Shown piece by piece: positions 10,150 through 23,840 of a stretch of DNA of 32,129 nt. This DNA comes from an uncultured Bacteroidales bacterium (lineage in GTDB: Bacteria > Bacteroidota > Bacteroidia > Bacteroidales > FEN-979), in the NCBI GenBank assembly GCA_903925275.1, contig CAIYES010000036.1, forward strand, positions 1 through 32,129, written 5' to 3'. Made by a program: the position numbers and the translations under genes. The notes below the pieces were generated by a model. It searched no databases. It was not told the DNA's origin and saw nothing but the letters and a program-made list of their open reading frames with translations. Position 1 is the first letter of the stretch. Every line of letters starts with the position of its first letter.

Positions 10150-11364
10150 ATGGGAGAAATTGCTACAACCGGCAACAAAGGCAAAGGAGTCCGCTCCGAT
10201 TGTTTTGTTACCCTCGAACTTACCGGCCAGGGAGGAATTCAGCTTCAGGTTGAATCAAAAGTAGCCGTGATGTACGGCGACAGCATCCGCAGGGAGACAT
10301 ATGAAATCCTGGAATTCTTCGGTATTCAACATGCGAATGTTAAAATTGAAGATTCGGGTGCATTGTCATTGGTTATCGCTGCCCGCCTCGAAGCGGCCAT
10401 TAAAAAACTTATCACGACAAACAAAGACTGGCTCCCTCTCATGCTGGAAGAGAACCGTTACACCACAGCTAAGGATCGCAACCGGTTTTCACGACTGTAC
10501 CTGCCGGGGAATTCCCCCAGCCTGATGATCAATGCCGGCATCCATAAACCCGATGGTATCATCCTCGACCTCGAAGACGCCGTAGCCCCGGATAAAAAGG
10601 ACGAGGCACGTTTCCTGGTGCGGAATGCCCTCTGCGGCATCGATTTCTATGGCGCTGAGAGGATGGTTCGCATCAACCAGGGCGAACGAGGGATTGAGGA
10701 TCTGAACTACATTATTCCATACAATGTCAACCTTATTCTGTTGCCCAAATGCGAAAATCCTGAACAGTTAAAGGCTGTTGACGAAAATATCCGGAAAATC
10801 CAGCAGGAACACAATCAGACGAACCAGGTCTGGATCATGCCGATCATCGAAAGTGCCCTTGGAGTGATGAATGCCTACCCCATTGCAGCGTGTTCCGCGA
10901 ACACTGTTGCGTTGGCCATCGGACTTGAAGATTATACGGCCGACCTTGGAACGAAACGCACTGCTGAAGGCATCGAATCGTTCTTTGCCCGCAGCTGGGT
11001 GGTTAACGCCGCACGGGCCGCCGGGATCCAGCCCATCGACTCGGTATTTTCCGATGTGGGCGACATGGAGGGGCTTCGGCAGAATGTTCTCCGCTCCAAA
11101 GCACTCGGTTTCGATGGCATGGGTTGCATTCATCCCCGCCAAATCGTGGTAATCCATGAAACGTTTGCCCCTACTCCAGAGGAAATTGAAAAAGCCAAAA
11201 AGATCGTTTTTGCATTTCACAAGGCTCAGGAACAAGGTCTTGGGGTGGTTGCCCTGGGAACTAAGATGATTGATCCTCCTGTGGTAAAAAGGGCGGTTAA
11301 CACCATCAATCTCGCACTGAAAATGAACAAGCTCGCTGAAAACTGGAGGGAAACGTATGCTTAA
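10150..11364 (+). CDS. citE: Citrate lyase acyl-carrier/beta subunit fusion (CitD-CitE)
   Basis: A 404-residue protein joining two citrate lyase subunits that are usually separate. Residues 1-90 match the gamma subunit (CitD acyl carrier): VTLELTGQGGIQLQV, YGDSIRRET and the end DSGALSLVIAARLEAA. S16 (context VRSDC) aligns with the serine that carries the phosphoribosyl-dephospho-CoA group. Residues about 110-400 are CitE, the citryl-ACP lyase of the HpcH/HpaI superfamily, with LEDAV (141-145), VRIN (173-176) and C-terminal GMGCIHPRQ. The complex cleaves citrate to acetate and oxaloacetate. The stop overlaps the CitF start by 8 nt, implying translational coupling. CitC, CitX and CitG, needed to activate the carrier, are not in the window. 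The fusion is seen directly; the serine assignment is by alignment from memory. Confidence 0.9.
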   Translation: MGEIATTGNKGKGVRSDCFVTLELTGQGGIQLQVESKVAVMYGDSIRRETYEILEFFGIQHANVKIEDSGALSLVIAARLEAAIKKLITTNKDWLPLMLEENRYTTAKDRNRFSRLYLPGNSPSLMINAGIHKPDGIILDLEDAVAPDKKDEARFLVRNALCGIDFYGAERMVRINQGERGIEDLNYIIPYNVNLILLPKCENPEQLKAVDENIRKIQQEHNQTNQVWIMPIIESALGVMNAYPIAACSANTVALAIGLEDYTADLGTKRTAEGIESFFARSWVVNAARAAGIQPIDSVFSDVGDMEGLRQNVLRSKALGFDGMGCIHPRQIVVIHETFAPTPEEIEKAKKIVFAFHKAQEQGLGVVALGTKMIDPPVVKRAVNTINLALKMNKLAENWRETYA

Positions 11365-12922
11365 ATTTGATAAACTTGTAACCAATGCAGCCGGACGTTT
11401 AGTTCCGACAATGGTCAACGGAAAACCTGCTGTGCCTTACATGGGCGTTGGAAAATATAAACCGGAAGGCTTTCGGGCCGCACCCAGATTATCCACCTGC
11501 GCCGACTATCCGGCCGATGGCAACAAAGTTATTCCCAGTCTCAAGGAAGCCCTGATCAAAGCAGGTTTGTGCGATGGGATGACCATTTCAACTCATCATC
11601 ATTTCCGCAATGGCGACCTGGTAGCCACACAAATTTTCGACATAGCGCATGAACTTGGCATAAAAAATCTGATGTGGTACCCATCCGCATCTTTCCCATG
11701 TCATGAACCCATGACCAAATACCTCGAAGACGGAACCATCAACCGCATTGAAGGCAGCATGAATGGCGCCCTTGGAAGGTTTACCTCCGAAGGAAAGATG
11801 AAGGGGCTTGGGGTTTTACGCTCGCATGGCGGTCGTTACCAGGCCGTTCAGGACGGCGAAGTTCACATCGACATTGCCGTCATCGCGGCTCCGACTGCCG
11901 ACCCGTTTGGAGATGCCAACGGAGTTAATGGCACTGCAGCCTGTGGCCCGCTTGGCTTTGCATTGGCCGATTCGCAATATGCCGACAAGGTGATCGTTGT
12001 TACCGACAATCTTATTCCTTTTCCTTGTCTGCCCTGGCAGATCAATGGTAACTACGTTGATTTTGTAGTTGTTCTCGATAAAATCGGCATCCCTGAAAAG
12101 ATCGTCAGCGGAACGACTGAAATAACAAAGAGTCCCGACCGGCTGCTGTTAGCCGAATGGTCAGCAAAATTCTGTGACGAAGCCGGCCTGATCTACGATG
12201 GGTTCTCTTTCCAGGCAGGAGCCGGCGGCACCGCACTCTCAATCGGGATCTATTTCTCGGAGATCTTGCGAACACGTGGCTGGAAAGCCCGTTTTGCTCG
12301 TGGTGGAAGCAACAAATATTTAGTAAAAATGCTGGAGGAGGGTCTCGTGGAATATATCCTTGATGGCCAGACCTTTGACCTTGAAGGGGTGCGCTCGATG
12401 CGCGACAACCCCCATCACACCTGGACCAGCCCCTTCACCAGTTATAACTACCATAGCAAGGGTAACTTTTCCTCCATGGTCGATATCGTGATCTTAGGAG
12501 CCACAGAGGTTGACGTGAATTTCAATGCGAACGTTGTAACCCATTCCGACGGTTACCTGTTGCATGGCATTGGTGGTTGGCAGAATACCCTCTTTGGAAA
12601 ATGTGTAATCCTGCCCATTCCGCTCTTTCGCGACCGGATGCCTGTGATCCGCGACGAGGTGACTACCATTTGCGGCCCCGGCGACCTTATCGATGTGATC
12701 GTGACCGAACGTGGCATTGCCATCAATCCGCTCCGCACCGACCTGATCGAAAAGATGAAAAACTCCTCCCTCCCAATCAAAACCATCGGAGAACTCAAAG
12801 CCGAAGCCGAAAAGATCTGCGGCGTTCCGGCCAAACCAAAGTTCACCGACGAGGTGGTGGCCGTGGTTAAATGGGTGGATGGCACGGTGCTGGATTCGAT
12901 ATGGAAAGTGGATGTCGAATGA
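11357..12922 (+). CDS. citF: Citrate lyase alpha subunit (citrate CoA-transferase)
   Basis: A 521-residue CitF protein, the citrate:acetyl-ACP transferase of citrate lyase, close to the usual length of about 510. Features include an N-terminal AAPRLSTCADYP segment, the glycine-rich FQAGAGGTAL near 290-300, and a C-terminal FTDEVVAVVKWVDGTVLDSIW run that is characteristic of the subunit. It starts inside the end of citDE (8-nt overlap), so the two are one operon and the same enzyme complex. Its TGA stop (12920-12922) is also the first three bases of a nine-unit TGACAAR array, so the gene ends exactly where the array starts. Assignment is firm. Confidence 0.95.
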   Translation: MLKFDKLVTNAAGRLVPTMVNGKPAVPYMGVGKYKPEGFRAAPRLSTCADYPADGNKVIPSLKEALIKAGLCDGMTISTHHHFRNGDLVATQIFDIAHELGIKNLMWYPSASFPCHEPMTKYLEDGTINRIEGSMNGALGRFTSEGKMKGLGVLRSHGGRYQAVQDGEVHIDIAVIAAPTADPFGDANGVNGTAACGPLGFALADSQYADKVIVVTDNLIPFPCLPWQINGNYVDFVVVLDKIGIPEKIVSGTTEITKSPDRLLLAEWSAKFCDEAGLIYDGFSFQAGAGGTALSIGIYFSEILRTRGWKARFARGGSNKYLVKMLEEGLVEYILDGQTFDLEGVRSMRDNPHHTWTSPFTSYNYHSKGNFSSMVDIVILGATEVDVNFNANVVTHSDGYLLHGIGGWQNTLFGKCVILPIPLFRDRMPVIRDEVTTICGPGDLIDVIVTERGIAINPLRTDLIEKMKNSSLPIKTIGELKAEAEKICGVPAKPKFTDEVVAVVKWVDGTVLDSIWKVDVE

Positions 12923-12982
12923 CAAGTGACAAATGACAAGTGACAAGTGACAAATGACAAGTGACAAATGACAAGTGACAAG
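12920..12982 (+). repeat. Heptanucleotide array A (9 perfect TGACAAR units)
   Basis: Nine contiguous 7-nt units, each TGACAAG or TGACAAA, in the order G A G G A G A G G by last base. The first TGA is the stop codon of citF. The period of 7 puts a TGA in all three forward frames within 21 nt, while the opposite strand has no stop in any frame. Array B (13410-13458) is its inverted partner. Confidence 0.97.
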
Positions 12983-13002
12983 CTGGGGGATTGTTGAGAT
13001 CG

Positions 13003-13356
13003 TTATTGATTTTTGCGGGCAGTTTTGATACTTGCCACAATTATGAAAAATAATTCGCTTCCTTCATTTTTGATGGGAGTAATTTTTTCCGGTTGAAAGT
13101 ATCCAAGGTCATTCACTAATTCAAGCCAGAAGATAGTTTCGTCGCATTCCTCTTCAACAATTTTCATTTTGCTGATAAAGTCTCGTTTTGATTTTGCCAG
13201 ACAACCAGCCCGATAATTTGCAGCTACAGAAGTAGCAGACCTTACGATTTGGTTCCCGATAATTTTTGATGTATTCGTTTCCGGTAAATTCTCCACCATC
13301 CTTATTATACTCAGCGCAAATTGTTTTGTCCGTTGTTTTAAGTTCTCATAAGCCAT
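13003..13356 (-). CDS. Four-helix bundle protein (S23/TIGR02436-like)
   Basis: A 117-residue, largely helical protein from the ATG at 13356; a GTG at 13368 would add four residues. The order of segments (ENLKQRTKQFA, NQIVRSATSVAANYRAG, EEECDETIFWLELVNDLG) matches the four-helix bundle family first known from 23S rRNA intervening sequences and related to the Avd accessory protein of diversity-generating retroelements. The surface is basic, which suggests nucleic acid binding; the exact function is unknown. It is encoded opposite to its neighbours and lies entirely between inverted TGACAAR arrays A and B, which together fill the citF-recQ interval. It looks like the cargo of a small inserted unit. 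No reverse transcriptase, transposase or rRNA gene is nearby. Confidence 0.88.
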   Translation of the reverse strand: MAYENLKQRTKQFALSIIRMVENLPETNTSKIIGNQIVRSATSVAANYRAGCLAKSKRDFISKMKIVEEECDETIFWLELVNDLGYFQPEKITPIKNEGSELFFIIVASIKTARKNQ

Positions 13357-13394
13357 AATTTTTATCACTTAATCCATTATTTCAAAAAAAGTAA

Positions 13395-13402
13395 TAAGTT
13401 TG
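13395..13402 (+). promoter_or_regulatory. Possible -7 box for recQ
   Basis: TAAGTTTG matches TAnnTTTG. A start site 6-8 nt downstream would fall at the first base of array B (13410), so the recQ leader would be made up of the repeat array. No TTG lies at the expected distance. Confidence 0.4.
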
Positions 13403-13409
13403 TTAATAA

Positions 13410-13458
13410 CTTGTCATTTGTCATTTGTCATTTGTCACTTGTCACTTGTCACTTGTAA
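13410..13458 (-). repeat. Heptanucleotide array B (inverted partner of array A)
   Basis: Seven units on the plus strand: CTTGTCA or TTTGTCA six times, then a variant CTTGTAA. This is the reverse complement of TGACAAR. The variant last unit supplies a TAA codon in frame directly before the recQ ATG at 13459. Array A, the enclosed gene and array B occupy 12920-13458 with no base left over between citF coding sequence and recQ. Confidence 0.96.
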
Positions 13459-15378
13459 ATGGTCCTCACAATCCAACAAATACTTCTGAAACACTGGGGC
13501 TATTCCTCCTTCCGCCCTTTGCAGGAAGAGATCATTCAATCGGTTCTCGATGGAAAGGATACATTGGCATTGTTACCCACGGGTGGTGGTAAATCAGTCT
13601 GTTTCCAGGTTCCGGCGCTTGCCCTCGATGGCATCTGCGTCGTTATCTCCCCGTTGATCGCCCTTATGAAAGACCAGGTCGACAACTTGAAAAAAAGAGG
13701 TATTCCTGCAGCAGCGATTCATTCGGGCATGCATCCCGACGAAATCGACATTATCCTTGGAAATTGCCGCTTCGGGAATACCAAGCTGCTCTATATTTCT
13801 CCTGAAAGACTTGCCACCGGGAAGATGCGCGAATCGCTGAAACAGATGAAAGTCAACCTTCTTGCTGTGGATGAAGCGCATTGCGTTTCACAATGGGGCT
13901 ACGATTTCAGACCGCCATACCTTCAGATCGCCAACATTCGTTCCTTGCTCCCCGGTACACCGGTGTTGGCGCTCACGGCAACAGCTACTCCCAGGGTGGT
14001 AAAGGACATCCAGCAAAAACTTGATTTTAAAAGGGAAAATGCATTCCAAAAAAGTTTTGAGCGTAAGAATCTCACCTATCTTGTCTTCAAGGAAGAAGAC
14101 AAGTTTAAACGCCTTCTCAAAATTGTCAATAGAGTGAAGGGCTCCGGGATTATCTATGTGCGCAATCGCAGGCAAACAAAGGATATTGCAGATTTTCTTC
14201 AGAAAAACAAGATCAGTGCTGACTTTTACCATGCCGGCCTTGATTCTAAAACACGCGATCAGCGACAATCGGCATGGATTAATGAAGACAAACGAATTAT
14301 CGTTTCAACCAACGCTTTTGGGATGGGAATCGACAAACCCAATGTCAGGCTGGTGATCCATCTCGACTTGCCCGACAGCATCGAAGCCTATTTCCAGGAA
14401 GCAGGCCGTGCAGGTCGCGATGAAAAACGGGCCTACGCTGTTTTGCTTTATGAAACTGCCGACATACTTGATTCACGACATAACCTCGAACTCTCCTACC
14501 CCGAATTGAAAACAATCCGTGATGTTTACCAGGCACTTGGTAATTATTTCCAGTTGCCTGTCGGGATGGGAAAAGACCTTCAGTTCGATTTCGACCTTGC
14601 CGCATTTGCCGGACAATATAATTTTCAACCGGTAATCGTGTTCAACTGCCTCAAATTCCTGGAAAAGGAGGGATTTGTCATGCTGACTGAAGGAATTCAT
14701 CATCCTTCGAAAATATACATCAAGGCGGGTAAAGAGGAACTTTACCGTTACCAGGTCGAACACGAGTCATTCGATCATTTCATTAAAACCATGCTGCGTT
14801 CATACAGCGGCATCCTTTCCGGGTTTGTAAACTTCAGTGAACCCGAACTCGCCCGCAGAAGCAACCTCAGCATCGAAAAGGTGGTCGGCAACCTGAACCA
14901 CCTCGTTAAATTGCAGATCCTTGATTATATTCCGCAAACAGACAAGCCTCAGGTCATCTTCATGCAGGAAAGGCTCGATTCCCGCGACCTTTCCATTTCA
15001 CATGAAAATTACAGAGACCGTTTTAAAGATGCTGAAAGGCGATTAGAGAAAATGACCGCATATGTCGAAAAAACCAACAAATGCCGTAGTCAGGCCTTAC
15101 TTGCCTATTTTGGAGAGAGTGACACCAAACGGTGCGGCATGTGTGATGTATGCATCGAACGCAACAAGATGAGCCTTAATGAAATGGAGTTCGACAGCAT
15201 TGTGTCCAAGATCAAACCGGTTTTAAAGATAAGTCCCTGTTCACTTGATGATATCATAATCGCAGCAGATCCTATCCATGAAGACAAGGTAATCCGTGTC
15301 ATTCAGTGGTTGGTGGATAATGAAAAAATTATCCTTGACAGCGCGCAAAGATACAGGTGGAGGGTGTTGAATGACTAA
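13459..15378 (+). CDS. recQ: RecQ-family ATP-dependent DNA helicase
   Basis: A 639-residue 3'-5' DNA helicase of the RecQ family, acting in recombination repair and replication fork processing. The helicase core shows LLPTGGGKS (Walker A, 38-46), VDEAHCVSQWGYDFRP (motif II, about 137-152), STNAFGMGIDKPNVR and QEAGRAGRDEK (motifs V and VI). The zinc-binding region carries cysteines near 542-566 (KCRSQALLAYFGE, RCGMCDVC). The C-terminus is short and an HRDC domain is not obvious, as in other short Bacteroidota RecQ proteins. The start is fixed by an in-frame TAA directly before the ATG, supplied by the last unit of array B. The methyltransferase gene follows after 11 nt. Confidence 0.95.
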   Translation: MVLTIQQILLKHWGYSSFRPLQEEIIQSVLDGKDTLALLPTGGGKSVCFQVPALALDGICVVISPLIALMKDQVDNLKKRGIPAAAIHSGMHPDEIDIILGNCRFGNTKLLYISPERLATGKMRESLKQMKVNLLAVDEAHCVSQWGYDFRPPYLQIANIRSLLPGTPVLALTATATPRVVKDIQQKLDFKRENAFQKSFERKNLTYLVFKEEDKFKRLLKIVNRVKGSGIIYVRNRRQTKDIADFLQKNKISADFYHAGLDSKTRDQRQSAWINEDKRIIVSTNAFGMGIDKPNVRLVIHLDLPDSIEAYFQEAGRAGRDEKRAYAVLLYETADILDSRHNLELSYPELKTIRDVYQALGNYFQLPVGMGKDLQFDFDLAAFAGQYNFQPVIVFNCLKFLEKEGFVMLTEGIHHPSKIYIKAGKEELYRYQVEHESFDHFIKTMLRSYSGILSGFVNFSEPELARRSNLSIEKVVGNLNHLVKLQILDYIPQTDKPQVIFMQERLDSRDLSISHENYRDRFKDAERRLEKMTAYVEKTNKCRSQALLAYFGESDTKRCGMCDVCIERNKMSLNEMEFDSIVSKIKPVLKISPCSLDDIIIAADPIHEDKVIRVIQWLVDNEKIILDSAQRYRWRVLND

Positions 15379-15389
15379 TTATTGACCCT

Positions 15390-16196
15390 ATGTCCAAACG
15401 CTCGTTATCTCTGTCATACGACGACCTCCCACTCTGGTCGGCACCTTTCGGGCTCACATTGCTCGATACCATACGTATGAAAACCCATATCAATGTGCTT
15501 GACATCGGCAGCGGCAGCGGTTTTCCCATGCTCGAACTGGCCGAAAGAATGGGAAAGACCTGCATGGTGTACGGCCTTGATCCCTCGGAGGAGGCCGTTA
15601 CGATGATCACTGAAAAAAAAGCGGCAAAAGGAATTGAACTGGCCAAGATCGTCCGCGGAACGGCAGAAGCCATCCCCTTTCCGGACGGGTATTTCGGGCT
15701 CATCGTTTCAAATAACGGGTTGAACAATGTAAGTGATCAGGCCGCATCTCTTGCCGAATGCTACCGTGTGGCCGACGCAGGTGCCCAAATGGTGCTTACC
15801 ATGAACCTGCCATACACCATGATCGAATTTTATGATGTTTTTGAAGAGACGTTACTGGAACTGGGGATGGAGGAGGCTGTTGTTAAAATGCATGAACACA
15901 TCAACGATAAACGTAAACCGGTGGAATACCTGAGAGACCTCATTACAGGAACCGGTTTTATGATCAATACGATCAATGTTGATGGTTTTAAACAAAAATA
16001 CAGCGACGGAAGTGCGTTCCTCAACCATTTTTTGATCCGAACCGCGTTTATGGAATCGTGGAAAACAATATTATCCGAAGATCAGGTTGAACCGGTGTTT
16101 AAAATCATTGAACAAAAACTAAACGTGATCGCCCGGAATTCCGGAGAACTTGCCATCTCGGTTCCCTATGTTTGTTTTGATTGCAGAAAAATTTAA
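15390..16196 (+). CDS. Class I SAM-dependent methyltransferase, substrate unknown
   Basis: A 268-residue protein with the Rossmann-type methyltransferase core. The SAM-binding glycine motif VLDIGSGSGFP lies near 35-45, an acidic residue follows strand 2 in YGLDPSEEA, and a motif-IV-like segment GYFGLIVSNNGLNNV lies near 105-120. Residues from about 150 to the end are helical and less conserved, as expected of a substrate lid. It resembles the UbiE/Methyltransf_11 group in general form; the substrate cannot be told. It lies 11 nt after recQ and 11 nt before the next small gene, so it is probably co-transcribed with both. Confidence 0.85.
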   Translation: MSKRSLSLSYDDLPLWSAPFGLTLLDTIRMKTHINVLDIGSGSGFPMLELAERMGKTCMVYGLDPSEEAVTMITEKKAAKGIELAKIVRGTAEAIPFPDGYFGLIVSNNGLNNVSDQAASLAECYRVADAGAQMVLTMNLPYTMIEFYDVFEETLLELGMEEAVVKMHEHINDKRKPVEYLRDLITGTGFMINTINVDGFKQKYSDGSAFLNHFLIRTAFMESWKTILSEDQVEPVFKIIEQKLNVIARNSGELAISVPYVCFDCRKI

Positions 16197-16207
16197 CATC
16201 TAAAATC

Positions 16208-16519
16208 ATGTTCTATTCATTGCTGTTAACAATTATGATGCTCCTGCCTGCGTCTCAGGATAAACTGGTTGGCAAAGATTGCGTATACAAGGGTTTCAAA
16301 CTCTATGGTAATGTAAAAATTGTGAATGATTTTCCAGATCTGAAGGTGAAAATCGTAGAGAATTTTCCCGACCTCAAAGTACAGGTAGTTGAAAATTTTC
16401 CTGATCAGTGTGGAAAATGGAAGTTTGTCAATGATTTTCCCGATATCAAAATCAAGTTCGTTACCGACTTCCCGGATTTGAAAATAAAATTCGTTGAAAA
16501 TTTTCCGGGAAATCCTTGA
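16208..16519 (+). CDS. Small secreted protein built of 11-residue FPD repeats
   Basis: A 103-residue protein from the ATG at 16208; an upstream start at 16181 would overlap the methyltransferase and spoil the signal peptide. Residues 1-17 (MFYSLLLTIMMLLPASQ) look like a signal peptide. From about residue 34 there are six consecutive repeats of roughly 11 residues with the pattern hKhVxDFPDhK or hKhVENFPDhK (h hydrophobic). The third is interrupted by a QCGKW insertion. Alternating hydrophobic and charged residues suggest a regular beta structure, possibly a small solenoid or sheet, outside the cytoplasm. I do not recognise a named family. The gene is 11 nt from the methyltransferase gene, and its TGA stop is the first three bases of array C. 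Confidence 0.75.
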   Translation: MFYSLLLTIMMLLPASQDKLVGKDCVYKGFKLYGNVKIVNDFPDLKVKIVENFPDLKVQVVENFPDQCGKWKFVNDFPDIKIKFVTDFPDLKIKFVENFPGNP

Positions 16520-16616
16520 GAAGTGACAAATTACAAGTGACAAGTGACAACAAGTGACAAATGACAAGTGACAACAAGTGACAACAAGTGACAAATGACA
16601 AATGACAAATGACAAG
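16517..16616 (+). repeat. Heptanucleotide array C with 10-nt variant units
   Basis: Thirteen units. The first is a variant TGAGAAG whose TGA is the stop of the FPD-repeat gene; one other is TTACAAG. Most are TGACAAG or TGACAAA. Three are 10-nt forms, TGACAACAAG, at 16545-16554, 16569-16578 and 16579-16588. No inverted partner lies before the glycosylase gene at 16682. The remaining 65 nt to that gene carry no clear signal. Confidence 0.95.
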
Positions 16617-16681
16617 TATGGGTTGTGGTTGGGTTATATTGCTTCGCAATTCACTTCGTAATTCGTAAATCTTAAATATCA

Positions 16682-17293
16682 ATGGTCGGCCGGGATTTCT
16701 TTCTGCAGTCGAATGTAACAACGATCGCTCGCGACTTGCTTGGCAAGCACCTGGTCTCTCGTATGGATGGGGAGTTCACTTCGGGGATCATTTGCGAAAC
16801 GGAGGCCTATGCCGGTGTAACCGACAGAGCATCACATGCCTTCGGAGGGCGCAGGACAGCGCGCACGGAGGTGATGTACGCTACCGGGGGCATCGCCTAT
16901 GTGTACCTTTGCTATGGAGTGCACTCTCTGTTCAACGTTGTCACCAATGCGGAAGGAATACCCCATGCTGTTTTAATACGTGGAATTATCCCCCTCGAAG
17001 GCAAAGAAATCATGCTCAGGCGTGCCGGGAAGGAGAAGGTGACCAAAGGGTTCGCCACAGGGCCTGGCAAGGTGTCAAAGCTCCTGGGGATCCATTACTC
17101 CCATTCGGGGTTAATCCTTTCTGACCATCCCGGAAAAGGTAAAAATTCCGTCATCTGGATTGAGGATCATGGCAGGGTGATTACACCGGATATGATCCTT
17201 CAGGGACCGAGAATCGGGGTGGACTATGCGGGAGAGGACGCGCTGTTGCCCTACAGATTTACAGTACCGGGTTTAACCCTGCAAACCAGGTAA
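16682..17293 (+). CDS. 3-methyladenine DNA glycosylase (AAG/MPG family)
   Basis: A 203-residue base-excision repair enzyme of the Mpg (alkyladenine glycosylase) fold, expected to remove 3-methyladenine and related damaged purines. Family motifs visible are LLGKHLVSR near 20-28, ICETEAYAGVTDRASHAFGG (38-57, with the catalytic-site Glu and Tyr region), YLCYGVHSLFNVVT near 77-90 and VLIRGIIPLEG near 98-108. The length matches the family, and the C-terminal RIGVDYAGEDALLPYRF is typical. It lies downstream of array C and upstream of a bidirectional terminator it shares with HU. The start codon has no obvious ribosome binding site, common in Bacteroidota. Confidence 0.93.
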   Translation: MVGRDFFLQSNVTTIARDLLGKHLVSRMDGEFTSGIICETEAYAGVTDRASHAFGGRRTARTEVMYATGGIAYVYLCYGVHSLFNVVTNAEGIPHAVLIRGIIPLEGKEIMLRRAGKEKVTKGFATGPGKVSKLLGIHYSHSGLILSDHPGKGKNSVIWIEDHGRVITPDMILQGPRIGVDYAGEDALLPYRFTVPGLTLQTR

Positions 17294-17355
17294 GGACTCC
17301 TAATAAAGGATCAAGAAGGCTAGAACTGCATTATAATCCTTCATCTCCGGCATAA

Positions 17356-17381
17356 AAAAACCCGGCCTAAACCGGGTTTTT
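17356..17381. terminator. Bidirectional rho-independent terminator
   Basis: A 10-bp perfect stem, AAAAACCCGG (17356-17365) and CCGGGTTTTT (17372-17381), around a 6-nt loop. A-rich and T-rich flanks let it serve both the glycosylase gene on the plus strand and HU on the minus strand. Confidence 0.9.
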
Positions 17382-17401
17382 CTTAAGGAAGTTGTAACGT
17401 C

Positions 17402-17674
17402 TTATTTAACTTTTTTGTTAAGCGCGGCACCTGCCTTGAATTTTACAACTTTCTTAGCTGCGATCTTGATCTCTTTTCCATTCTGAGGATTGCGTCCCTT
17501 GCGGGCAGCTCTCTTGGAAACAGAAAATGATCCAAAATCAACTAAAGCAACTCTTTCACCCTTGCTGAGTGCTTTTTTCGTATTATCAATAAAAGCCTCC
17601 AGAGCGCGTTTTGCTTCAACTTTGGTCAGTTTTGCATCGTTGCCAATTGCTTCGATTAATTGAGCCTTGTTCAT
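17402..17674 (-). CDS. HU-family DNA-binding protein
   Basis: A 90-residue histone-like protein that bends and compacts DNA. It starts MNKAQLIEAIGNDAKLTK, as in canonical HU, and keeps the central VDFGSFSVSKRAARKGRNPQ region with the GRNP turn of the DNA-binding arm and the C-terminal KFKAGAALNKKV. The full length agrees with HU. It has its own promoter at 17714-17743 and a terminator at 17356-17381, so it is a single-gene unit. IHF is a less likely alternative given the HU-like N-terminus. Confidence 0.95.
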   Translation of the reverse strand: MNKAQLIEAIGNDAKLTKVEAKRALEAFIDNTKKALSKGERVALVDFGSFSVSKRAARKGRNPQNGKEIKIAAKKVVKFKAGAALNKKVK

Positions 17675-17713
17675 TTTTCTAAGTTTTAATTAATAGATGA
17701 TTAATAATCGCTG

Positions 17714-17743
17714 CAAATATACGGTATCTGAAAAAAAAGTCAA
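17714..17743 (-). promoter_or_regulatory. Bacteroidota-type promoter of the HU gene
   Basis: On the minus strand TTG (17741-17743) is followed after exactly 19 nt by TATATTTG (17714-17721), an exact match to TTG-N19-TAnnTTTG. The start site would fall near 17707, about 33 nt upstream of the HU ATG. Confidence 0.8.
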
Positions 17744-17816
17744 GTGATTTCGGCTGAAAACAGTTGAAAATGTTGATAACATGGAATTTTTGTTAATATC
17801 TATACCCCCGAAACAG

Positions 17817-18788
17817 TTAAATACCATGGGTTTCCGGAAATATTCCGGCGAAGCCCCTCAGGAAATCCCCGGTATTCATGGCTTTTCTGCCAGACAACTG
17901 GAGCAATTTCACATTGATTATCCCGTTTTGTGCGCTGATTTTTATAGAAGTTTTTCCATCCGTAATAATTTCACCCGGTGACTTGTTAATCGAGCCAATC
18001 TCAGGGATGGTTTTAAAGATCTTCAGGGTCCGCAATGTACCATCCGGCATCTTCAGCTCCATGAATGCTCCTGGGTGGGGACTGAGTCCACGGATGAAAT
18101 TATGAATGGTCACCACATCCTGGTACCAGTTAATCCTGCAATTTTCTGTGTATATCTTAGGCGCTTGTTTTAACGGTGTATCACCAATAATCAACGATTC
18201 CTGTGTGACTTCCCTTACGCTGCCTGAAATAATGCTCTCAATCGTCCTGATAACCAGTTTCGCGCCGATTTCCATCAGCCGGTCATGAAGTTCACCAGCC
18301 GTTTCGTCAATGCCAATTTTAATTTTTTCCGAAAAAATAATTTTTCCTGTGTCAATCTGGTCATTTAAAAAGAAAGTAGTAACACCAGTTTCATGTTCGC
18401 CGCAAATAATGGCCCAATTGATAGGAGCCGCCCCTCGGTATTGAGGCAAAAGAGATGCATGCAGGTTGAATGTCCCAAGAGCTGGCAATGCCCATACCTG
18501 TTTGGGCATCATTCTGAAAGCAATGACAATTTGCAGATCGGGCTTATATGACATGAGCTGTTCGGAAAACCTGGGATCCTTCATATTCACCGGCTGTAAC
18601 ACCGGGATTCCGTGCAGCAGGGCAAATTCTTTAACCGGTGAAGCTTTTTCCTTTAGTCCCCTCCCGGCAGGTTTATCCGGGGCTGTAACAACTGCAACAA
18701 CGGTAAATCCAGCAATAACAAGTCTCTCCAGAGATGGTACAGCAAAACCGGGCGTGCCGAAAAAAATAATGCGAGGAAATTCGTTCAT
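17817..18788 (-). CDS. fmt: Methionyl-tRNA formyltransferase
   Basis: A 323-residue enzyme that formylates initiator methionyl-tRNA using 10-formyl-tetrahydrofolate. The N-terminal FFGTPGFAVPSL (9-20) is the family signature. Catalytic residues N108 and H110 (TFNLHASLLPQYRGAAPINW) and D146 (DQIDTG) lie at the same numbers as in the E. coli enzyme. A C-terminal OB-like domain begins near 205 and includes IRGLSPHPGAF. The start is chosen by fit to the family N-terminus. Oddly, an 8-bp-class hairpin with an eight-base T tract on the minus strand ends directly at this ATG, leaving no room for a normal leader if it terminates. Confidence 0.95.
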   Translation of the reverse strand: MNEFPRIIFFGTPGFAVPSLERLVIAGFTVVAVVTAPDKPAGRGLKEKASPVKEFALLHGIPVLQPVNMKDPRFSEQLMSYKPDLQIVIAFRMMPKQVWALPALGTFNLHASLLPQYRGAAPINWAIICGEHETGVTTFFLNDQIDTGKIIFSEKIKIGIDETAGELHDRLMEIGAKLVIRTIESIISGSVREVTQESLIIGDTPLKQAPKIYTENCRINWYQDVVTIHNFIRGLSPHPGAFMELKMPDGTLRTLKIFKTIPEIGSINKSPGEIITDGKTSIKISAQNGIINVKLLQLSGRKAMNTGDFLRGFAGIFPETHGI

Positions 18789-18812
18789 AAAAAAAAGCCT
18801 GATTACTCAGGC
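18789..18812 (-). terminator. Terminator-like hairpin abutting the fmt start codon
   Basis: On the minus strand GCCTGA and TCAGGC (18807-18812 and 18797-18802) form a 6-bp GC-rich stem with a 4-nt loop, followed by eight T residues (18796-18789) that end one base before the fmt ATG. This has the form of a rho-independent terminator for the upstream TPR gene, or an attenuator in front of fmt. Confidence 0.7.
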
Positions 18813-18839
18813 CATAAAATTAAGAATACCGGATGTAAA

Positions 18840-18867
18840 TGACAAATGACAAATGACAAGTGACAAA
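18840..18867 (+). repeat. Heptanucleotide array D (4 TGACAAR units)
   Basis: Four perfect units ending A A G A on the plus strand, in the fmt-TPR interval. It faces array E in inverted orientation across about 40 nt, so the pair can form a long hairpin. Confidence 0.95.
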
Positions 18868-18906
18868 TAATGGAAGAAAAAAGCCTTGTTACAAATTTAA
18901 TAACTA

Positions 18907-18955
18907 ACCGTCACTTGTCATTCGTCACTTGTCACTTGTCACTTGTCACTTGTCA
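18907..18955 (-). repeat. Heptanucleotide array E, starting at the TPR gene stop codon
   Basis: On the minus strand the array starts with TGACAAG units at 18955 and runs through six 7-nt units, one a variant TGACGAA, then a partial unit. The first TGA (18953-18955) is the stop codon of the TPR gene. Its inverted partner is array D. Confidence 0.95.
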
Positions 18956-19654
18956 CTTTTTCAACTGTCCCTCAGCATAAGAGATATATTTATCCGCTTC
19001 TCTGCCTTCATTGGAACGTGAATAATTTTCTTTGATCTTTTTGTAGATAGTTATGGCCTTTTCATAATTGCCAAGCTCTTCATAGGCCATAGCGGCCTTC
19101 TTCAGGAATAAAGGTGTAGTGAATTCGTTCTTCTTCATTTCAGCAGCATCCATGTAAAGATCTGCAGCTTTCTGTACCTGTTTTAATTCCATGTTTGCAT
19201 CGCCCATAGCGCCTTTGGCCATTGGTCCGACAAATTGATCACTGCTGCTGAATTTATTCAAATGCTCCAGGGCTTTTTCAAATTGGCCAAGTTTTAAATA
19301 GCAAATTCCGGCATAATATTGGGACAGGTTTGCCGATTTTGTCATGCCAAATTCATCAATAACAGCAAGGAATCCGAGGTATTGTCCATCCCCGTTCAAT
19401 GCTTTCTGCAATGAATCCTGTTCGAAATATTTTTCTGCCATGAACATCTGGCTCTGAGCATCCTTTTCTTTGGGTGCCAAATAGAAACGTTTGAATCCGA
19501 AAAACCCGAGAATTACAACGATAATCACACCGATTACAATCATGATGATCTGCTGATATTTTTCGATAAATTGCTCGGTTTTGCTGAATGCCTCTTCAAC
19601 TGCAACGATTCGTTCTTCTGTTTTGTCAATCTTTTTATCCTTCTTGAGTGCCAT
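18953..19654 (-). CDS. Membrane-anchored tetratricopeptide repeat protein
   Basis: A 233-residue protein from the ATG at 19654. A longer open frame to 20143 is rejected because it runs antisense through the TrmH-family gene and lacks family-like sequence. The N-terminus (1-35) is charged and helical, one membrane helix spans about 36-56 (IIMIVIGVIIVVILGFFGF), and the rest forms several TPR-type helical pairs, for example QYYAGICYLKLGQFEKALEHL and AAMAYEELGNYEKAITIYKKI. The topology fits an inner-membrane anchor with a periplasmic scaffold, like YfgM; a specific partner is not evident. A -7-type box, TAATTTTG on the minus strand (19676-19683), precedes the ATG by 21 nt. The stop codon is the first TGA of array E. 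Confidence 0.85.
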   Translation of the reverse strand: MALKKDKKIDKTEERIVAVEEAFSKTEQFIEKYQQIIMIVIGVIIVVILGFFGFKRFYLAPKEKDAQSQMFMAEKYFEQDSLQKALNGDGQYLGFLAVIDEFGMTKSANLSQYYAGICYLKLGQFEKALEHLNKFSSSDQFVGPMAKGAMGDANMELKQVQKAADLYMDAAEMKKNEFTTPLFLKKAAMAYEELGNYEKAITIYKKIKENYSRSNEGREADKYISYAEGQLKK

Positions 19655-19675
19655 GGTATCTGAAATTTGGAGGTG

Positions 19676-19683
19676 CAAAATTA
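19676..19683 (-). promoter_or_regulatory. Possible -7 box of the TPR gene
   Basis: The minus strand reads TAATTTTG, matching TAnnTTTG, 21 nt upstream of the TPR ATG. No TTG is found at the standard spacing. It is divergent from the box at 19724-19731. Confidence 0.45.
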
Positions 19684-19723
19684 CATTTTTTCCTGAATCA
19701 ACGGCACATTTGCCCATTTTTTT

Positions 19724-19731
19724 TACTTTTG
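19724..19731 (+). promoter_or_regulatory. Possible -7 box of the TrmH-family gene
   Basis: TACTTTTG matches TAnnTTTG and lies 23 nt upstream of the ATG at 19755. It supports that start over the longer frame beginning at 19581. No TTG is seen at 19-20 nt spacing. Confidence 0.5.
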
Positions 19732-19754
19732 CACAAATCCCGAAACCCTGGAAC

Positions 19755-20477
19755 ATGTACCCGGTCAATGATCCGTCAGCTGCAATTAACAATGAATTGA
19801 TCGAATACCTGAAGGGTTGTATCACACAGGAACGTTTCAAAAAATTCCAGTCAACCATCCGCTTCCGCACCCGGCATATCACCATGGTACTCGAAGACAT
19901 ATTCCAGCCGCACAATGCCAGCGCAGTATTACGGAGTTGCGATTGTTTTGGCATCCAGGATGTACACATCATCGAAAACAAGAATAAATATGAGGTAAAC
20001 CCAGATGTGGCGCTTGGATCTTCGAAATGGCTGAACCTTGTCATGTATAACGGTGGCGAACACAACACCGCAACCTGCCTGAAAAACCTAAAAAAACAGG
20101 GATACCGGCTGGTAGCTACTACCCCCCACAAAGATGATTTCACCCCGGAAACGCTTCCTCTTACTCAAAAAACCGCGCTTATTTTCGGTACCGAGCTGGC
20201 AGGTCTGACGCCGGTGGCACTCGAAATGGCTGATGACTTCATTAAAATCCCGATGGTTGGATTTACTGAAAGCCTGAACATCAGCGTATCTGCTGCAATT
20301 TTTATCCAAACCCTCACTACCAGACTGAGAGTCTCCAACATTCCATGGCAGCTCACAAATGATGAACAATCAGAGATCATGCTCACCTGGTTGAGAAACT
20401 CTATTAAGCGATCCGATGTCATTGTCCGCGATTTCATGAATGCAAGAAATATTCCGGCTGATCCGCTGCAGCCATAA
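19755..20477 (+). CDS. TrmH-family (SPOUT) RNA 2'-O-methyltransferase
   Basis: A 240-residue SPOUT methyltransferase that uses SAM to methylate a ribose 2'-OH, most likely guanosine 18 of tRNA as in TrmH. The three family motifs are present: NASAVLRSCDCFG with R60 (54-66), IFGTELAGLTP near 155-165 and IPMVGFTESLNISVSAA near 178-194. The start at 19755 is chosen because the upstream part of the longer frame (from 19581) is antisense to the TPR gene and a -7-type box lies at 19724-19731. An N-terminal extension of about 40 residues, characteristic of TrmH, is present. An rRNA target (RlmB type) is less likely given the overall form. Confidence 0.88.
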   Translation: MYPVNDPSAAINNELIEYLKGCITQERFKKFQSTIRFRTRHITMVLEDIFQPHNASAVLRSCDCFGIQDVHIIENKNKYEVNPDVALGSSKWLNLVMYNGGEHNTATCLKNLKKQGYRLVATTPHKDDFTPETLPLTQKTALIFGTELAGLTPVALEMADDFIKIPMVGFTESLNISVSAAIFIQTLTTRLRVSNIPWQLTNDEQSEIMLTWLRNSIKRSDVIVRDFMNARNIPADPLQP

Positions 20478-20478
20478 T

Positions 20479-20509
20479 TTGGTGGAATCGTTCATTTTAT
20501 GTAAATTTG
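20479..20509 (+). promoter_or_regulatory. Bacteroidota-type promoter of the THX gene
   Basis: TTG (20479-20481), 20 nt, then TAAATTTG (20502-20509). It begins directly after the stop of the TrmH-family gene and would give a leader of about 25 nt before the THX ATG. Confidence 0.7.
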
Positions 20510-20540
20510 CCGGTTATCAGAAATTTTTAATACATCATAT

Positions 20541-20840
20541 ATGGGAAAAGGAGATAAAAAAACGAAACGTGGCAAGATTGTCATCGGTTCATCGGGAGTG
20601 AAAAGGGCACGCAAAAAGAAAAGATCCCTTGCCGCAGTTGCGCCAAAAGCTGAGTCAAAACCTGTGAAGGAAGTTGAAGAAGAGGTAATTCACCCTGCAA
20701 AGGATGTTCCTAAGAAAACTGCTAAAAAAGCTGAGGAGCATGTCGAAGGTGCCGAAGTGAAACCAAAAGGTGCCAAAACGAAGAAAAAAATTGCCGGAAC
20801 CGACGAGGAACCTGCTCACGAAGAACCTAGCATAGGTTAA
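20541..20840 (+). CDS. 30S ribosomal protein THX (bTHX) with long charged tail
   Basis: A 99-residue very basic protein. The first 30 residues, MGKGDKKTKRGKI, IGSSGVKRARKKK, correspond to ribosomal protein THX, a small 30S subunit component known from Thermus and common in Bacteroidota. Residues 31-99 form a low-complexity Lys, Glu, Ala and Pro tail with no fold visible, probably disordered. Tailed versions occur in related bacteria, though this tail is long. It has its own promoter (20479-20509), and a hairpin at 20870-20899 lies between it and rsmG. The THX core is clear; the role of the tail is unknown. Confidence 0.85.
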   Translation: MGKGDKKTKRGKIVIGSSGVKRARKKKRSLAAVAPKAESKPVKEVEEEVIHPAKDVPKKTAKKAEEHVEGAEVKPKGAKTKKKIAGTDEEPAHEEPSIG

Positions 20841-20869
20841 CAATTTTCATCAAATGATCTTACCAAACA

Positions 20870-20909
20870 CGTCCGGATCGGCACTTGCTTATCCGGACGA
20901 TTTTATTTT
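20870..20909 (+). terminator. Terminator hairpin between THX and rsmG
   Basis: A 9-bp perfect stem, CGTCCGGAT (20870-20878) and ATCCGGACG (20891-20899), with a 12-nt loop, followed by the T-rich tract ATTTTATTTT. It ends only 3 nt before the rsmG ATG, so rsmG translation or transcription may depend on partial readthrough. Confidence 0.75.
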
Positions 20910-20912
20910 ATC

Positions 20913-21539
20913 ATGAGCCTGCCTTCATCCTATTTCCCGCAACTGACTCTTTTGCAACGCGATCGGTTTGAGCAAATGAAAAAACTCTACCGCGAATGGA
21001 ATGCCAGGATCAACGTGATTTCACGCAAGGATATTGATCAGATTGGGATTCACCATGTTCTGCATTCCCTGGCAATCGCTGACATCATAAAATTCAAACC
21101 CGGAACAACGATCATGGACGCAGGAACGGGTGGTGGTTTCCCCGGAATTCCACTTGCCGTGATGTTTCCTGATGTTCAATTTACGTTGGTTGACTCAATC
21201 GGGAAAAAAATCATGGTGGTCGAAACCATTGTGAAAAGCCTTGGACTACTTAATGTAATCACTCTGAATGCCCGCTTTGAATCGGTGAAACAAAAGTTTG
21301 ACTTCATTACAGGCCGGGCAGTTTCAAATCTCCCTCTCTTTCTGTCAATGGTCAGCCAGTGTGTGAAAAAAAAAGAAATCAACGAACTTTCAAATGGGAT
21401 TTTATACCTCACAGGAGGTGAAATTGAACCCGATATAAAAAAAATACCGGCACTATCGACCACCTATAATTTGTCAGATCATTTCAATGAATCCTATTTT
21501 ACGACGAAAAAGCTTGTTCATCTTTATAACTTTTCATAA
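20913..21539 (+). CDS. rsmG: 16S rRNA (guanine-527-N7)-methyltransferase
   Basis: A 208-residue RsmG (GidB) enzyme that methylates N7 of G527 in 16S rRNA with SAM. Markers are the N-terminal LYREWNARINVISRKD (25-40), HHVLHSLAI, the SAM motif MDAGTGGGFPGIPLAVMFP near 68-86, the acidic VDS loop, and FITGRAVSNLP near 130-140. Length is typical for Bacteroidota. It lies 72 nt downstream of the THX gene, directly after a terminator-like hairpin. Loss of this enzyme gives low-level streptomycin resistance in other bacteria. Confidence 0.95.
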   Translation: MSLPSSYFPQLTLLQRDRFEQMKKLYREWNARINVISRKDIDQIGIHHVLHSLAIADIIKFKPGTTIMDAGTGGGFPGIPLAVMFPDVQFTLVDSIGKKIMVVETIVKSLGLLNVITLNARFESVKQKFDFITGRAVSNLPLFLSMVSQCVKKKEINELSNGILYLTGGEIEPDIKKIPALSTTYNLSDHFNESYFTTKKLVHLYNFS

Positions 21540-21676: not shown

Positions 21677-23749
21677 ATGGCTGAACAGAAGAAGTTCATT
21701 CCTTTCGTCTCCGCTGAGACAAACATGAAAGAATTTACCTTACGGGCGTTGATCATTGGCCTCTTTTTTGCCGTTATTCTGGGCGCTGCCAATGCTTACC
21801 TCGGACTTAAAGCCGGTATGACCATCGCCGCTACCTACCCAGCCGCCGTGCTTGGGATGGCAATTTTGCGGTTAATGAAGGGGTCTATCCTGGAAGAAAA
21901 CTTTACCCGTACTGTGGGTTCCATTGGCGAATCTGTTGCCGCAGGCGCGATATTTACACTGCCTGCATTTTTTGTTTCAGGCATCTGGTCCGAATTTTTC
22001 ACAGTAGGCCATTACATCACCTCTTCGCTGATCCTTATGGCAGGCGGTGTGCTCGGTATCATGTTCGTTGCCCTTCTTCGCCGCGTCATGGTTGAGGATG
22101 CTGAACTTCCTTTCCCTGAATCTGTTGCTGCAGCCGAAATTCACAAAGCAGGGCAAGGTGGCTCAGGCGGGTCGAAGTTCCTGTTCTGGTCAATGGGACT
22201 TGGCGGATTGATCAAAATCCTCGGAGAACTTAAGCTTTTTCAGTATCTCTGGGAAAAATTTGTAGTTTTTGGCAACCAAACCATCACAGGTACAGTGTTC
22301 AAAGGTCAGGGTGGAATGTTACTCAGTTCACCAGGTGTGAGCCCTGCTTACATGGGTGTTGGTTATATCATCGGTCCCAAATTAGGTGCCCTTAACTTTA
22401 GCGGTGGAATACTTGCCTGGGGTTTGATGGCTCCAATGATTTTATATTTCCTCACACCCAGCATCGATTTTACGGCCTGGGCACAAATGCTTTCCACAGT
22501 CACCGGAATATCCCCGGCTGAAGCGACTGCAAAAGTGGCAGACCCAAGCTTCCAGATTACCCAGGTATGGAAATTTATCATCCGCCCGATCGCCATTGGC
22601 GGTATGTTGGTCAGTGCGGCCTTTACCCTCTTCAAAATGCGTAAAAGCCTCACTACCGGAATTGCCCGTTCTGTGAAAGACGTAAAAAAAGCAGCTTCCG
22701 GAGTTGAACACAACGTTCCAAGAAATGAAAAAGACATCAGCTTCAGCTGGATCATGGTTGGAATTTTTGCCGTTGCTGTGCTTACATTCTGCATTACCTA
22801 CTTCATTTTCGAGACCAACATCCTGATTGCCGTTGTTGCCTCTACTGTGATGATTATTCTGGCCTTTTTCTTTGCCTCTGTTTCCGGCTACCTTGTTGGG
22901 ATCATGGGCTCGTCAAACAACCCGATCAGCGGACTTACGCTCACAGCCCTCGTGGTGACTGCTCTTATCCTTGTTGCACTTGGCGTACAGGGTAATGCAG
23001 GCGTTGCAACGGTACTTGGCGTGGCAGCAATTGTTTGCGTTTCTGCTGCTGTTGCAGGTGAAATGCTTCAGGATCTCAAAGCCGGCCATATCCTTGGTGG
23101 TACTCCATGGCGTATGCAGATCGGCGATATCCTGGGAGTCATACTCGCTGGTGCCGTCATGTTTGTTGTGTTGGCTTTCCTCAACGACGGTGATATTGCC
23201 AGCGGTAAAAACCTCGGATACCAGGGCGGTTTTGGAAGTAAAAATCTTTCGGCACCCCAGGCCAGCCTGATGGCTATCCTTTCACGTGGTATCGTGCAGG
23301 GACAAATGGCCTGGCCGCTTATCATCGCGGGCATGCTTATGGGTGTTGCCTTCATCCTGATGCAGGTAAAAAGCCCGATGCTTGTCAGCGTCGGCATGTA
23401 CCTCCCCATCGAAACCACTTTCGCTATTTTCGTAGGTGGATTGATCAAGGGCGCCGTGGAAATGTATTCTGAAAAAAGAAAGCACAACGAGGCACAAAAA
23501 GTCCGGGTTGAAAATACCGGGGTACTCCTGGCATCCGGTATGATTGCAGGAGAGGCGCTCATGGGACTGCTCATTGCAATCTTCGCGGTGTTTAACATCT
23601 TCCTGTACAACTATTTCAGTTTCTTTACAACCCCTACATTCTACATCAGCTTTGTGGTGCTGGCGATCATTGCCTACGTACTGATCCAGATTCCGCTGAA
23701 GAATGCTGGAAAACCAGATGAACCGGCGCCCCCGGCTTCGGGCATGTAG
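21677..23749 (+). CDS. OPT-family oligopeptide transporter
   Basis: A 690-residue, strongly hydrophobic transporter with about 14-16 membrane helices, expected to import small peptides (or, in some members, metal chelates) by proton symport. The N-terminal region LRALIIGLFFAVILGAANAYLGLKAGMTIAATYPAAVLGMAILR and the segments GSIGESVAAGAIFTLPA, AELPFPESVAAAEIHKAG and GSSNNPISGLTLTALV are typical of the prokaryotic OPT branch. A cytoplasmic loop near 325-345 is basic. It ends with its own terminator (23769-23807). A PqqD-like gene and a PepD dipeptidase gene follow on the same strand, which fits a peptide uptake and breakdown group. The upstream 137 nt contain no clear promoter match. Confidence 0.93.
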   Translation: MAEQKKFIPFVSAETNMKEFTLRALIIGLFFAVILGAANAYLGLKAGMTIAATYPAAVLGMAILRLMKGSILEENFTRTVGSIGESVAAGAIFTLPAFFVSGIWSEFFTVGHYITSSLILMAGGVLGIMFVALLRRVMVEDAELPFPESVAAAEIHKAGQGGSGGSKFLFWSMGLGGLIKILGELKLFQYLWEKFVVFGNQTITGTVFKGQGGMLLSSPGVSPAYMGVGYIIGPKLGALNFSGGILAWGLMAPMILYFLTPSIDFTAWAQMLSTVTGISPAEATAKVADPSFQITQVWKFIIRPIAIGGMLVSAAFTLFKMRKSLTTGIARSVKDVKKAASGVEHNVPRNEKDISFSWIMVGIFAVAVLTFCITYFIFETNILIAVVASTVMIILAFFFASVSGYLVGIMGSSNNPISGLTLTALVVTALILVALGVQGNAGVATVLGVAAIVCVSAAVAGEMLQDLKAGHILGGTPWRMQIGDILGVILAGAVMFVVLAFLNDGDIASGKNLGYQGGFGSKNLSAPQASLMAILSRGIVQGQMAWPLIIAGMLMGVAFILMQVKSPMLVSVGMYLPIETTFAIFVGGLIKGAVEMYSEKRKHNEAQKVRVENTGVLLASGMIAGEALMGLLIAIFAVFNIFLYNYFSFFTTPTFYISFVVLAIIAYVLIQIPLKNAGKPDEPAPPASGM

Positions 23750-23807: not shown

Positions 23808-23840
23808 CTACTGCCTACTGCCTACTGCCTATTGCCTATT
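23808..23840 (-). repeat. Second heptanucleotide array F (TAGGCAR units)
   Basis: On the minus strand four 7-nt units, TAGGCAA once and TAGGCAG three times, end in a further TAG. On the plus strand this reads CTACTGC three times and CTATTGC once. Like TGACAAR it starts with a stop codon and varies A/G at position 7. It begins directly after the T tract of the OPT terminator. Confidence 0.93.

Follow-up and report, generated by a model that had tools for sequence, protein, structure and literature searches.

A four-helix-bundle gene between inverted heptamer arrays at citF-recQ and a candidate REP/RAYT-like class of small elements

The element between citF and recQ

We analyzed a stretch of 32,129 nucleotides (the window) from an uncultured Bacteroidales bacterium (assembly GCA_903925275.1, contig CAIYES010000036.1), in which the interval between two genes that we take to be citF and recQ is occupied by a four-helix-bundle gene enclosed by inverted tandem arrays of the heptamer TGACAAR. 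These names and those of other neighbors, such as fmt, are putative, having been assigned from reading either in a first-pass annotation or by us. The citF open reading frame (ORF; 11357-12922) ends in a stop codon whose TGA opens array A, the left arm (12920-12982, forward strand), which consists of nine perfect TGACAAR units, as the first-pass annotation had described. The right arm, array B (13410-13458, reverse strand), was said to hold seven inverted units and to end on the base before the recQ ATG. Its end is indeed there, the ATG at 13459 following directly, but only six units are perfect (13410-13451), the seventh being a degenerate CTTGTAA (13452-13458). Likewise, the statement that no base is left over holds for the two outer ends but not for the inside, where 20 bases separate array A from the gene and 53 bases separate the start codon from array B. 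The latter stretch (13357-13409, reverse strand) is leader- or promoter-like and is similar, by eye, among orthologous elements of the genus. Overall, the window contains 50 TGACAAR matches, while 13.6 were expected and the maximum among 100 shuffles was 24; a chance origin of the arrays was rejected by these shuffles as well as by the reversed pattern and the control windows given below.

The gene itself (13003-13356, reverse strand) encodes 117 amino acids from the ATG at 13356 and matches the profiles PF05635 (23S_rRNA_IVP; E=1.8e-19, 70.4 bits against a cut-off of 33.8) and TIGR02436 (E=7e-28, 97 against a curated cut-off of 24). The frame is also open upstream to a GTG at 13368 (121 amino acids), but the ATG is the more likely start since relatives align from it. 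The AlphaFold2 model (mean pLDDT, the predicted local distance difference test, 95.1) has four helices and matches the structures 2rld and 2gsc (Xcc0516) with TMq values of 0.80-0.85. Chains of 4dwl and 8ub7, which represent Avd, are more distant (TM-score 0.75-0.78; Foldseek E of at least 0.01). The proposed kinship to the proteins of rRNA intervening sequences and to Avd is supported, the fold matching S23/IVP proteins and, more remotely, Avd, in agreement with what is published on the family (PMC10053308). The polar residues N47, R49, S56, K63, E69, E70, D72, E73, and E98 were invariant in a subfamily alignment (A1) of 29 of the 36 intended sequences, from which L082 and L083 (in-frame stops), L084, L088, L089, L090, and L091 were omitted. 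Searches with PADLOC and PHROGs gave no match for the protein, and a known defense or phage family was rejected on these grounds. The IVP family is common, with a match in 116 of 148 genomes sampled from Bacteroidota.

Inverted flanking arrays and the citF-recQ site in other genomes

Inverted tandem arrays of one 7- to 9-base unit flanked 133 of 167 four-helix genes but only 5 of 275 other genes at the same loci, a gene being scored as positive when its joint inverted-unit score exceeded the 99th percentile of 1723 control pairs. The earlier suggestion of a cassette with inverted array ends and a single cargo gene is supported by this difference, and four-helix genes do lie between inverted arrays more often than other genes. 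Positive genes amounted to 6 of 8 in the source genome, 72 of 90 in related genomes, 35 of 39 among named loci, and 20 of 30 among the top hits of the phylum. The 167 genes, which come mostly from the window's own order (98) or phylum, were obtained from 176 family ORFs in 164 loci by dropping identical proteins and genes with flanks of <80 bases on either side; they include broken genes (e.g., L082 and L083), at least one of which (L267) entered the count as two pieces. The initial samples comprised 35 named loci, 29 related-genome loci, 30 phylum top hits, and the source genome's nine genes, to which 60 further loci from lower-ranked related-genome matches were added for the joint score.

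An earlier measure, in which both sides had to share the best period and the left unit had to be the reverse complement of the right one within 1 mismatch, was positive at 53 of 100 complete loci and in 14 of 2723 control pairs. By sample, this corresponded to 24/35 named loci, 15/27 relatives, 10/30 phylum top hits, and 4/8 genes of the source genome, with 11/2174, 2/214, 1/270, and 0/65 control window pairs in the same order. The threshold for long arrays was reached by 13 of 17 flank zones in the source genome, 32 of 56 in relatives, and 17 of 70 at named loci, against 26 of 1439 control windows. By this count and by the earlier measure, L061 and L163, which are one place, are counted in two samples. 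Array-flanked four-helix genes also occur on plasmids, namely in Cyanobacteria, Chloroflexota, and Treponema. From 27 matches in plasmids and phages, we read 11 loci, which belong to Chloroflexota, Cyanobacteria, Treponema, and Bernardetia and to a single phage record; 9 passed the joint test, the Bernardetia (30) and phage (20.5) loci failing it.

The draft source genome (5.65 Mb in 574 contigs) contains nine PF05635 genes, and TGACAAR arrays were found within 1.5 kb of only one of them, the citF-recQ copy. A search for TGACAAR alone would therefore have spoken against the cassette, because the other paralogues carry other words, which were seen by a unit-free search: GGTTKATG-type octamers on contigs C143 and C393, an AATGCARRC nonamer on C104, ATTTCAG on C129, and a GAATATC-type word on C535. 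The paralogue on C56 has no arrays, that on C262 has arrays in direct orientation, and that on C155 is cut off on one side by the contig end, its other side carrying an array of nonamers or octamers.

At the citF-recQ site, 30 recQ loci were fetched, seven of them from more distant families without citF beside recQ; the two genes were adjacent in 22 of the remaining 23 loci (the exception being G149), G153 and G158 being near-identical sisters and G151 and G152 giving no orthologous recQ. The four-helix element lies between citF and recQ in 9 of these 22 genomes, the source genome included. Empty orthologous sites, as looked for on the cassette idea, exist as well: in 9 of the 22 genomes, only 3-19 bp remain up to the first aligned recQ codon. 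Three more genomes hold other remains: G163 has roughly three TGACAAR units, G164 an array-free stretch of 132 bp, and G168 a stretch of 148 bp with a nonamer array.

The slot of G156 (L167 887-1500) is occupied by a GxxExxY-family gene (TIGR04256) with AACCACAAAGG-type repeats 3' of the gene and a leader that resembles, by eye, the leader of the four-helix element. This gene is perhaps a second cargo type; since a PF13366 search of the source genome gave no match, we do not extend our claim to GxxExxY genes.

In a citF+recQ tree of 21 genomes, most filled sites grouped together, with weak support in places and with G154 standing apart. The nine four-helix proteins of the site were monophyletic among the sampled proteins, with a bootstrap value of 79; within them, one clade comprises five species with GATTTAC and the other four species with TGACAAR or AATTACC. 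Compared with the source genome, the eight other species showed 94-97% identity in citF, 81-90% in the first 180 amino acids of recQ, and 55-69% in the four-helix protein, and both arms differ together between species. As judged from these comparisons, the citF-recQ element is old and inherited at the site, with several losses or replacements. Inheritance at the site and the monophyly of the nine genes led us to reject an insertion that is purely local or recent, and the supposition that the copy had arrived recently is not supported. A more distant named Bacteroidales contig (L064) carries a four-helix element with ATGTACG arms between citF and recQ; the encoded protein does not group with the nine, so that the slot may have received an element repeatedly. 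One-site inheritance also seems to occur outside Bacteroidota, as the four-helix gene lies between a putative ABC transporter ATPase and permease (identified by eye) in all three Anaerolineales loci L068, L070, and L083.

Array units, protein lineages, and gene-less arrays

We then compared the array word with the protein in 130 of the 133 positive genes, three having been dropped because they were <70 residues long or held X. The period was 7 in 89 genes, 8 in 36, and 9 in 5, with 85 distinct consensus words. Among cross-genome protein pairs, the word was common (within one mismatch) to 152 of 179 pairs at ≥65% identity, 118 of 322 at 55-65%, 214 of 1360 at 45-55%, and 90 of 6418 below 45%, whereas it was shared by only 4 of 106 pairs of paralogues within a genome. 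For pairs without similar neighboring ORFs in the available DNA, the corresponding counts were 9/9 (≥80%), 15/21 (65-80%), 101/219 (55-65%), 210/1206 (45-55%), and 90/6491 (<45%). Gene and arms therefore travel together, and paralogues of one genome keep different words. Copies at unrelated sites were also detected as DNA. For the element on C129 (L037), relatives with no similar ORFs beside them were found in G162, G148, and G152; L037, L159, L260, and L241 are pairwise 84-88% identical over 527-598 bp, and in the alignment of L037, L159, and L260 the likeness fades beyond the arrays and, by eye, beyond a short inverted repeat outside them. Similarly, the source genome's copies on C143 and C393 (L031/L033) show 87.6% identity across 573 bp that run from the left array up to the end of the contig, while their left flanks differ.

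These data bear on the idea that the arrays are passive satellites, slippage-prone heptamers that pile up between genes and to which the gene is linked by hitch-hiking or composition bias. According to published passages (PMC4692102), some bacteria contain an excess of heptamer arrays that has no known cause, which would fit such satellites. Inverted arrays were, however, rare at the control genes (5/275) and in the control windows (14/2723), and slippage alone produces neither matching new inverse arm units nor unit-protein co-variation without synteny, so that we regard this idea as very improbable. Plain slippage was rejected, since inverted arms that differ together stay unexplained.

The arm word is also dispersed without the gene. 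Three consecutive TGACAAR units gave 201 matches in the source genome and the reversed control gave 0. Within the window, one gene-less array (16517-16617, forward strand) lies between the ORFs 16181-16519 and 16682-17293, and the corresponding place holds an array of the genome's own arm unit in five other species of the genus and a TAATTTT array in G159. An inverted pair, whose left half (18837-18868, forward strand) stands beside ORF 17817-18788 (putative fmt) and whose right half spans 18910-18958 (reverse strand), was not matched in the seven relatives read that far, in which no array with a score of ≥16 was found between the neighboring genes.

In nine genomes, we compared the gene-less arrays in the 10-17 kb surrounding the site or, for the source genome, in the 32-kb window; 15 of 27 had exactly the arm word of their own genome, against 6.3 expected by permutation of genomes (p=0.0006), and 20 of 27 had it within one mismatch, against 9.9 expected (p=0.0019). 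This list omits one period-10 row of the source genome (G000) and retains two overlapping G154 rows; for G155, G161, and G000, more than a single arm variant was allowed. Genome-wide, the dominant trimer corresponded to the arm word in 7 of 8 genomes, which represents only a tendency (permutation, 4/56); the comparison covers 8 of the 9 site genomes, G155 having another word and being left out. Genomes with TGACAAR arms had 201, 34, and 14 TGACAAR against 0, 1, and 0 GATTTAC trimer matches, and those with GATTTAC arms had 297, 144, 123, and 36 GATTTAC against 55, 0, 4, and 1 TGACAAR matches, the exception being the TGACAAR-rich G165 (40 against 141). Same-genus genomes with the site element also held more matches to the two words than those without it (9 versus 7 genomes, one-sided p=0.0028), G149, G151, and G152 being omitted as no citF-recQ interval was found in them; G156, without a four-helix element at the site, is nonetheless rich in both words. 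Such arrays are probably undercounted in drafts because arrays break assemblies: in the source genome, contigs C46 (at its end), C104, and C150 (at their starts) break inside TGACAAR arrays.

Gene-less arrays were found near gene ends, singly or as inverted pairs, and most of those sampled in the source genome had no close inverted partner. They also showed a polarity relative to the neighboring genes: in 18 of the 23 TGACAAR arrays of the source genome with at least three units and a gene call on both sides, arms included, a forward unit was nearer the left gene or a reverse unit nearer the right gene (p=0.009; p=0.001 when pooled with relatives, using ORF-based gene calls). This polarity would suit a post-transcriptional regulon, in which arrays at gene ends, grown by replication slippage and kept by selection, would serve as binding sites in RNA or DNA for the protein, their dedicated regulator, which would be autoregulated through the arms. 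Other points in line with a regulon are that published heptamer arrays are similarly placed and mostly transcribed (PMC4692102), that a role of TAACTGA repeats in regulating translation was proposed by MacGregor (PMC4679880), and that unit-protein co-variation is also what a binding protein would give. By itself, however, a regulon accounts neither for the presence of gene-plus-arm copies in several phyla and at loci that are unrelated, nor for the tendency of gene-less arrays at unrelated genes to carry the arm unit of their genome, and we consider it unlikely.

Relation to known systems and possible mode of spread

REP (repetitive extragenic palindromic) repeats consist of a palindrome with a conserved tag. 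REP-associated tyrosine transposase (RAYT) genes lie between two inverted cognate repeats, have dispersed gene-less repeats with which they co-evolve, and evolve fast (PMC2817692). The four-helix elements resemble RAYT genes in each of these respects: two inverted cognate repeats flank the gene, further copies of the repeat are scattered through the genome on their own, gene and repeat co-evolve, and the gene evolves faster than its neighbors citF and recQ. They differ in that the protein is a four-helix bundle (hmmscan, PF05635 only) rather than a tyrosine transposase and in that the repeats are head-to-tail arrays of 7- to 9-mers rather than single palindromes, none of the main words being palindromic. 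The elements also differ from insertion sequences and miniature inverted-repeat transposable elements, as the single gene at citF-recQ is PF05635 and no transposase gene is present in that element. With diversity-generating retroelements they share the fold of Avd, but no reverse transcriptase lies on the element's contig, the seven RVT_1 matches of the source genome being on other contigs. Moreover, reverse transcriptase is not a general partner, because 2 of the 9 site genomes, G159 and G161 (drafts 95-97% complete, with the element at the site), gave no RVT_1 match; a general need for this enzyme was rejected for this reason.

The 23S rRNA intervening sequences, whose stem is cut by RNase III, carry an open reading frame between complementary arms, as the four-helix elements do, and the protein belongs to the same family. 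The element could accordingly be a similar RNA element, with arms forming an RNA stem that is cut by RNase III, tolerance in operons owing to the excision of its transcript, and a protein that binds the stem. The arms at citF-recQ can fold into a long RNA stem (551 nt; z -8.2; 0 of 100 shuffles equally stable), and the family is named for rRNA intervening sequences. Stem stability is nevertheless no independent evidence, because any two inverted arrays would fold. Unlike the intervening sequences, the element lies between two protein genes and not in rRNA (an Rfam scan of positions 11000-21000 of the window gave no match at the gathering score), its arms are tandem arrays, and gene-less cognate arrays are found elsewhere, most of which, among those sampled in the source genome, lack the inverted partner needed for such a stem. 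We therefore judge an element of this kind improbable.

Dispersed, mostly intergenic tandem heptamers are themselves known, among them the heptanucleotide arrays called short tandemly repeated repetitive (STRR) sequences in cyanobacteria. Others are TAACTGA in Beggiatoaceae, Cyanobacteria, and Bacteroidetes (PMC4679880) and GGGAATC in Xanthomonas and GGGGAYT in Nostoc (PMC4692102), the latter two being mostly transcribed and similar to ours in polarity and placement, and those of Xanthomonas often forming close inverted pairs. What distinguishes the arrays described here is the cognate gene inside them, since the published passages tie no gene physically to the arrays. MacGregor compared the distribution of TAACTGA with those of XisH/XisI and one hypothetical protein family and found TAACTGA arrays and XisH/XisI similarly distributed (PMC4679880); on a Nostoc plasmid (L282), a four-helix gene with AAGTCGC arrays adjoins XisH and XisI. 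In the open-access literature, the matches listed nowhere tied arrays and protein family together, and a search by array words returned nothing relevant. As each family that we tested has a defining trait which the elements lack (tyrosine transposase, rRNA location, adjacent reverse transcriptase, transposase gene), we file the class as new and as working most like REP/RAYT.

Our best explanation of these data places the citF-recQ insert in a widespread class of small four-helix elements, in which protein lineages differ in their unit. We consider it fairly probable that this class is REP/RAYT-like in that the four-helix-bundle protein recognizes its own repeat and helps it to spread. The protein, in a five-chain assembly as in its solved relatives, would bind its own unit, either as DNA or within the long hairpin into which the arms can fold. 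Together with host enzymes, it would allow the element and the gene-less arrays to spread or to persist at gene boundaries, an action that we liken to the role presumed for RAYT proteins on REP sequences. Recognition and spreading by the protein had already been put forward from the window alone; we infer them likewise, now from the findings that the unit follows the protein lineage and that gene-less arrays tend toward the arm unit. A bolder form, possible but in our estimate somewhat less probable than its opposite, is that IVP-family proteins are the cognate master genes of dispersed arrays of 7- to 9-mers, seeding, extending, and rewriting their own word in trans. They would then be selfish or maintenance elements of several phyla that spread without a transposase or polymerase of their own.

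Several points weigh against a REP/RAYT-like class. All the evidence in its favor is comparative, and hmmscan of the protein found no domain known from nucleases, transposases, or polymerases. The likeness of the two arms could also be maintained by gene conversion or template switching between them, with no need for the protein. The citF-recQ copy is inherited in nine species and is not a fresh insertion, and in the TGACAAR-rich genomes G165, G156, and G148 no TGACAAR-armed gene was among those fetched, which were not all of the matches. The joint test was failed by 34 of the 167 genes, and at the 30 family members that scored highest across the phylum, 0 of 60 zones held long arrays, only short inverted ones being present; the cassette idea, although largely right, is weakened by both counts. 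Finally, the arms are direct rather than inverted in L032, L067, and L093 by one measure, L067 and L093 nevertheless passing the joint inverted-unit test.

The cause of the dispersed heptanucleotide arrays of cyanobacteria, Xanthomonas, and Beggiatoaceae has so far not been known, and linking each IVP protein lineage to its own word could explain both these arrays and the common IVP family. A second consequence concerns gene-neighbor methods. At the plasmid loci L274, L276, L277, and L280, four-helix genes lie between heptamer arrays amid genes of defense or CRISPR operons (DUF1156 and Swt1 HEPN twice, drmD-pglX, and csx2-cas1). A four-helix gene inside a CRISPR, DISARM, or other defense operon may reflect insertion at a gene junction rather than a defense role, and such methods may mistake plasmid four-helix genes for defense parts.

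Two further features of the window were observed. ORF 16181-16519, directly before the gene-less array, encodes 112 amino acids of repeated VENFPDLKVK-like stretches and had no Pfam or NCBIfam match. Just after ORF 21677-23749, a tandem array of 4.4 copies of CTACTGC, a word different from TGACAAR, spans positions 23808-23838.

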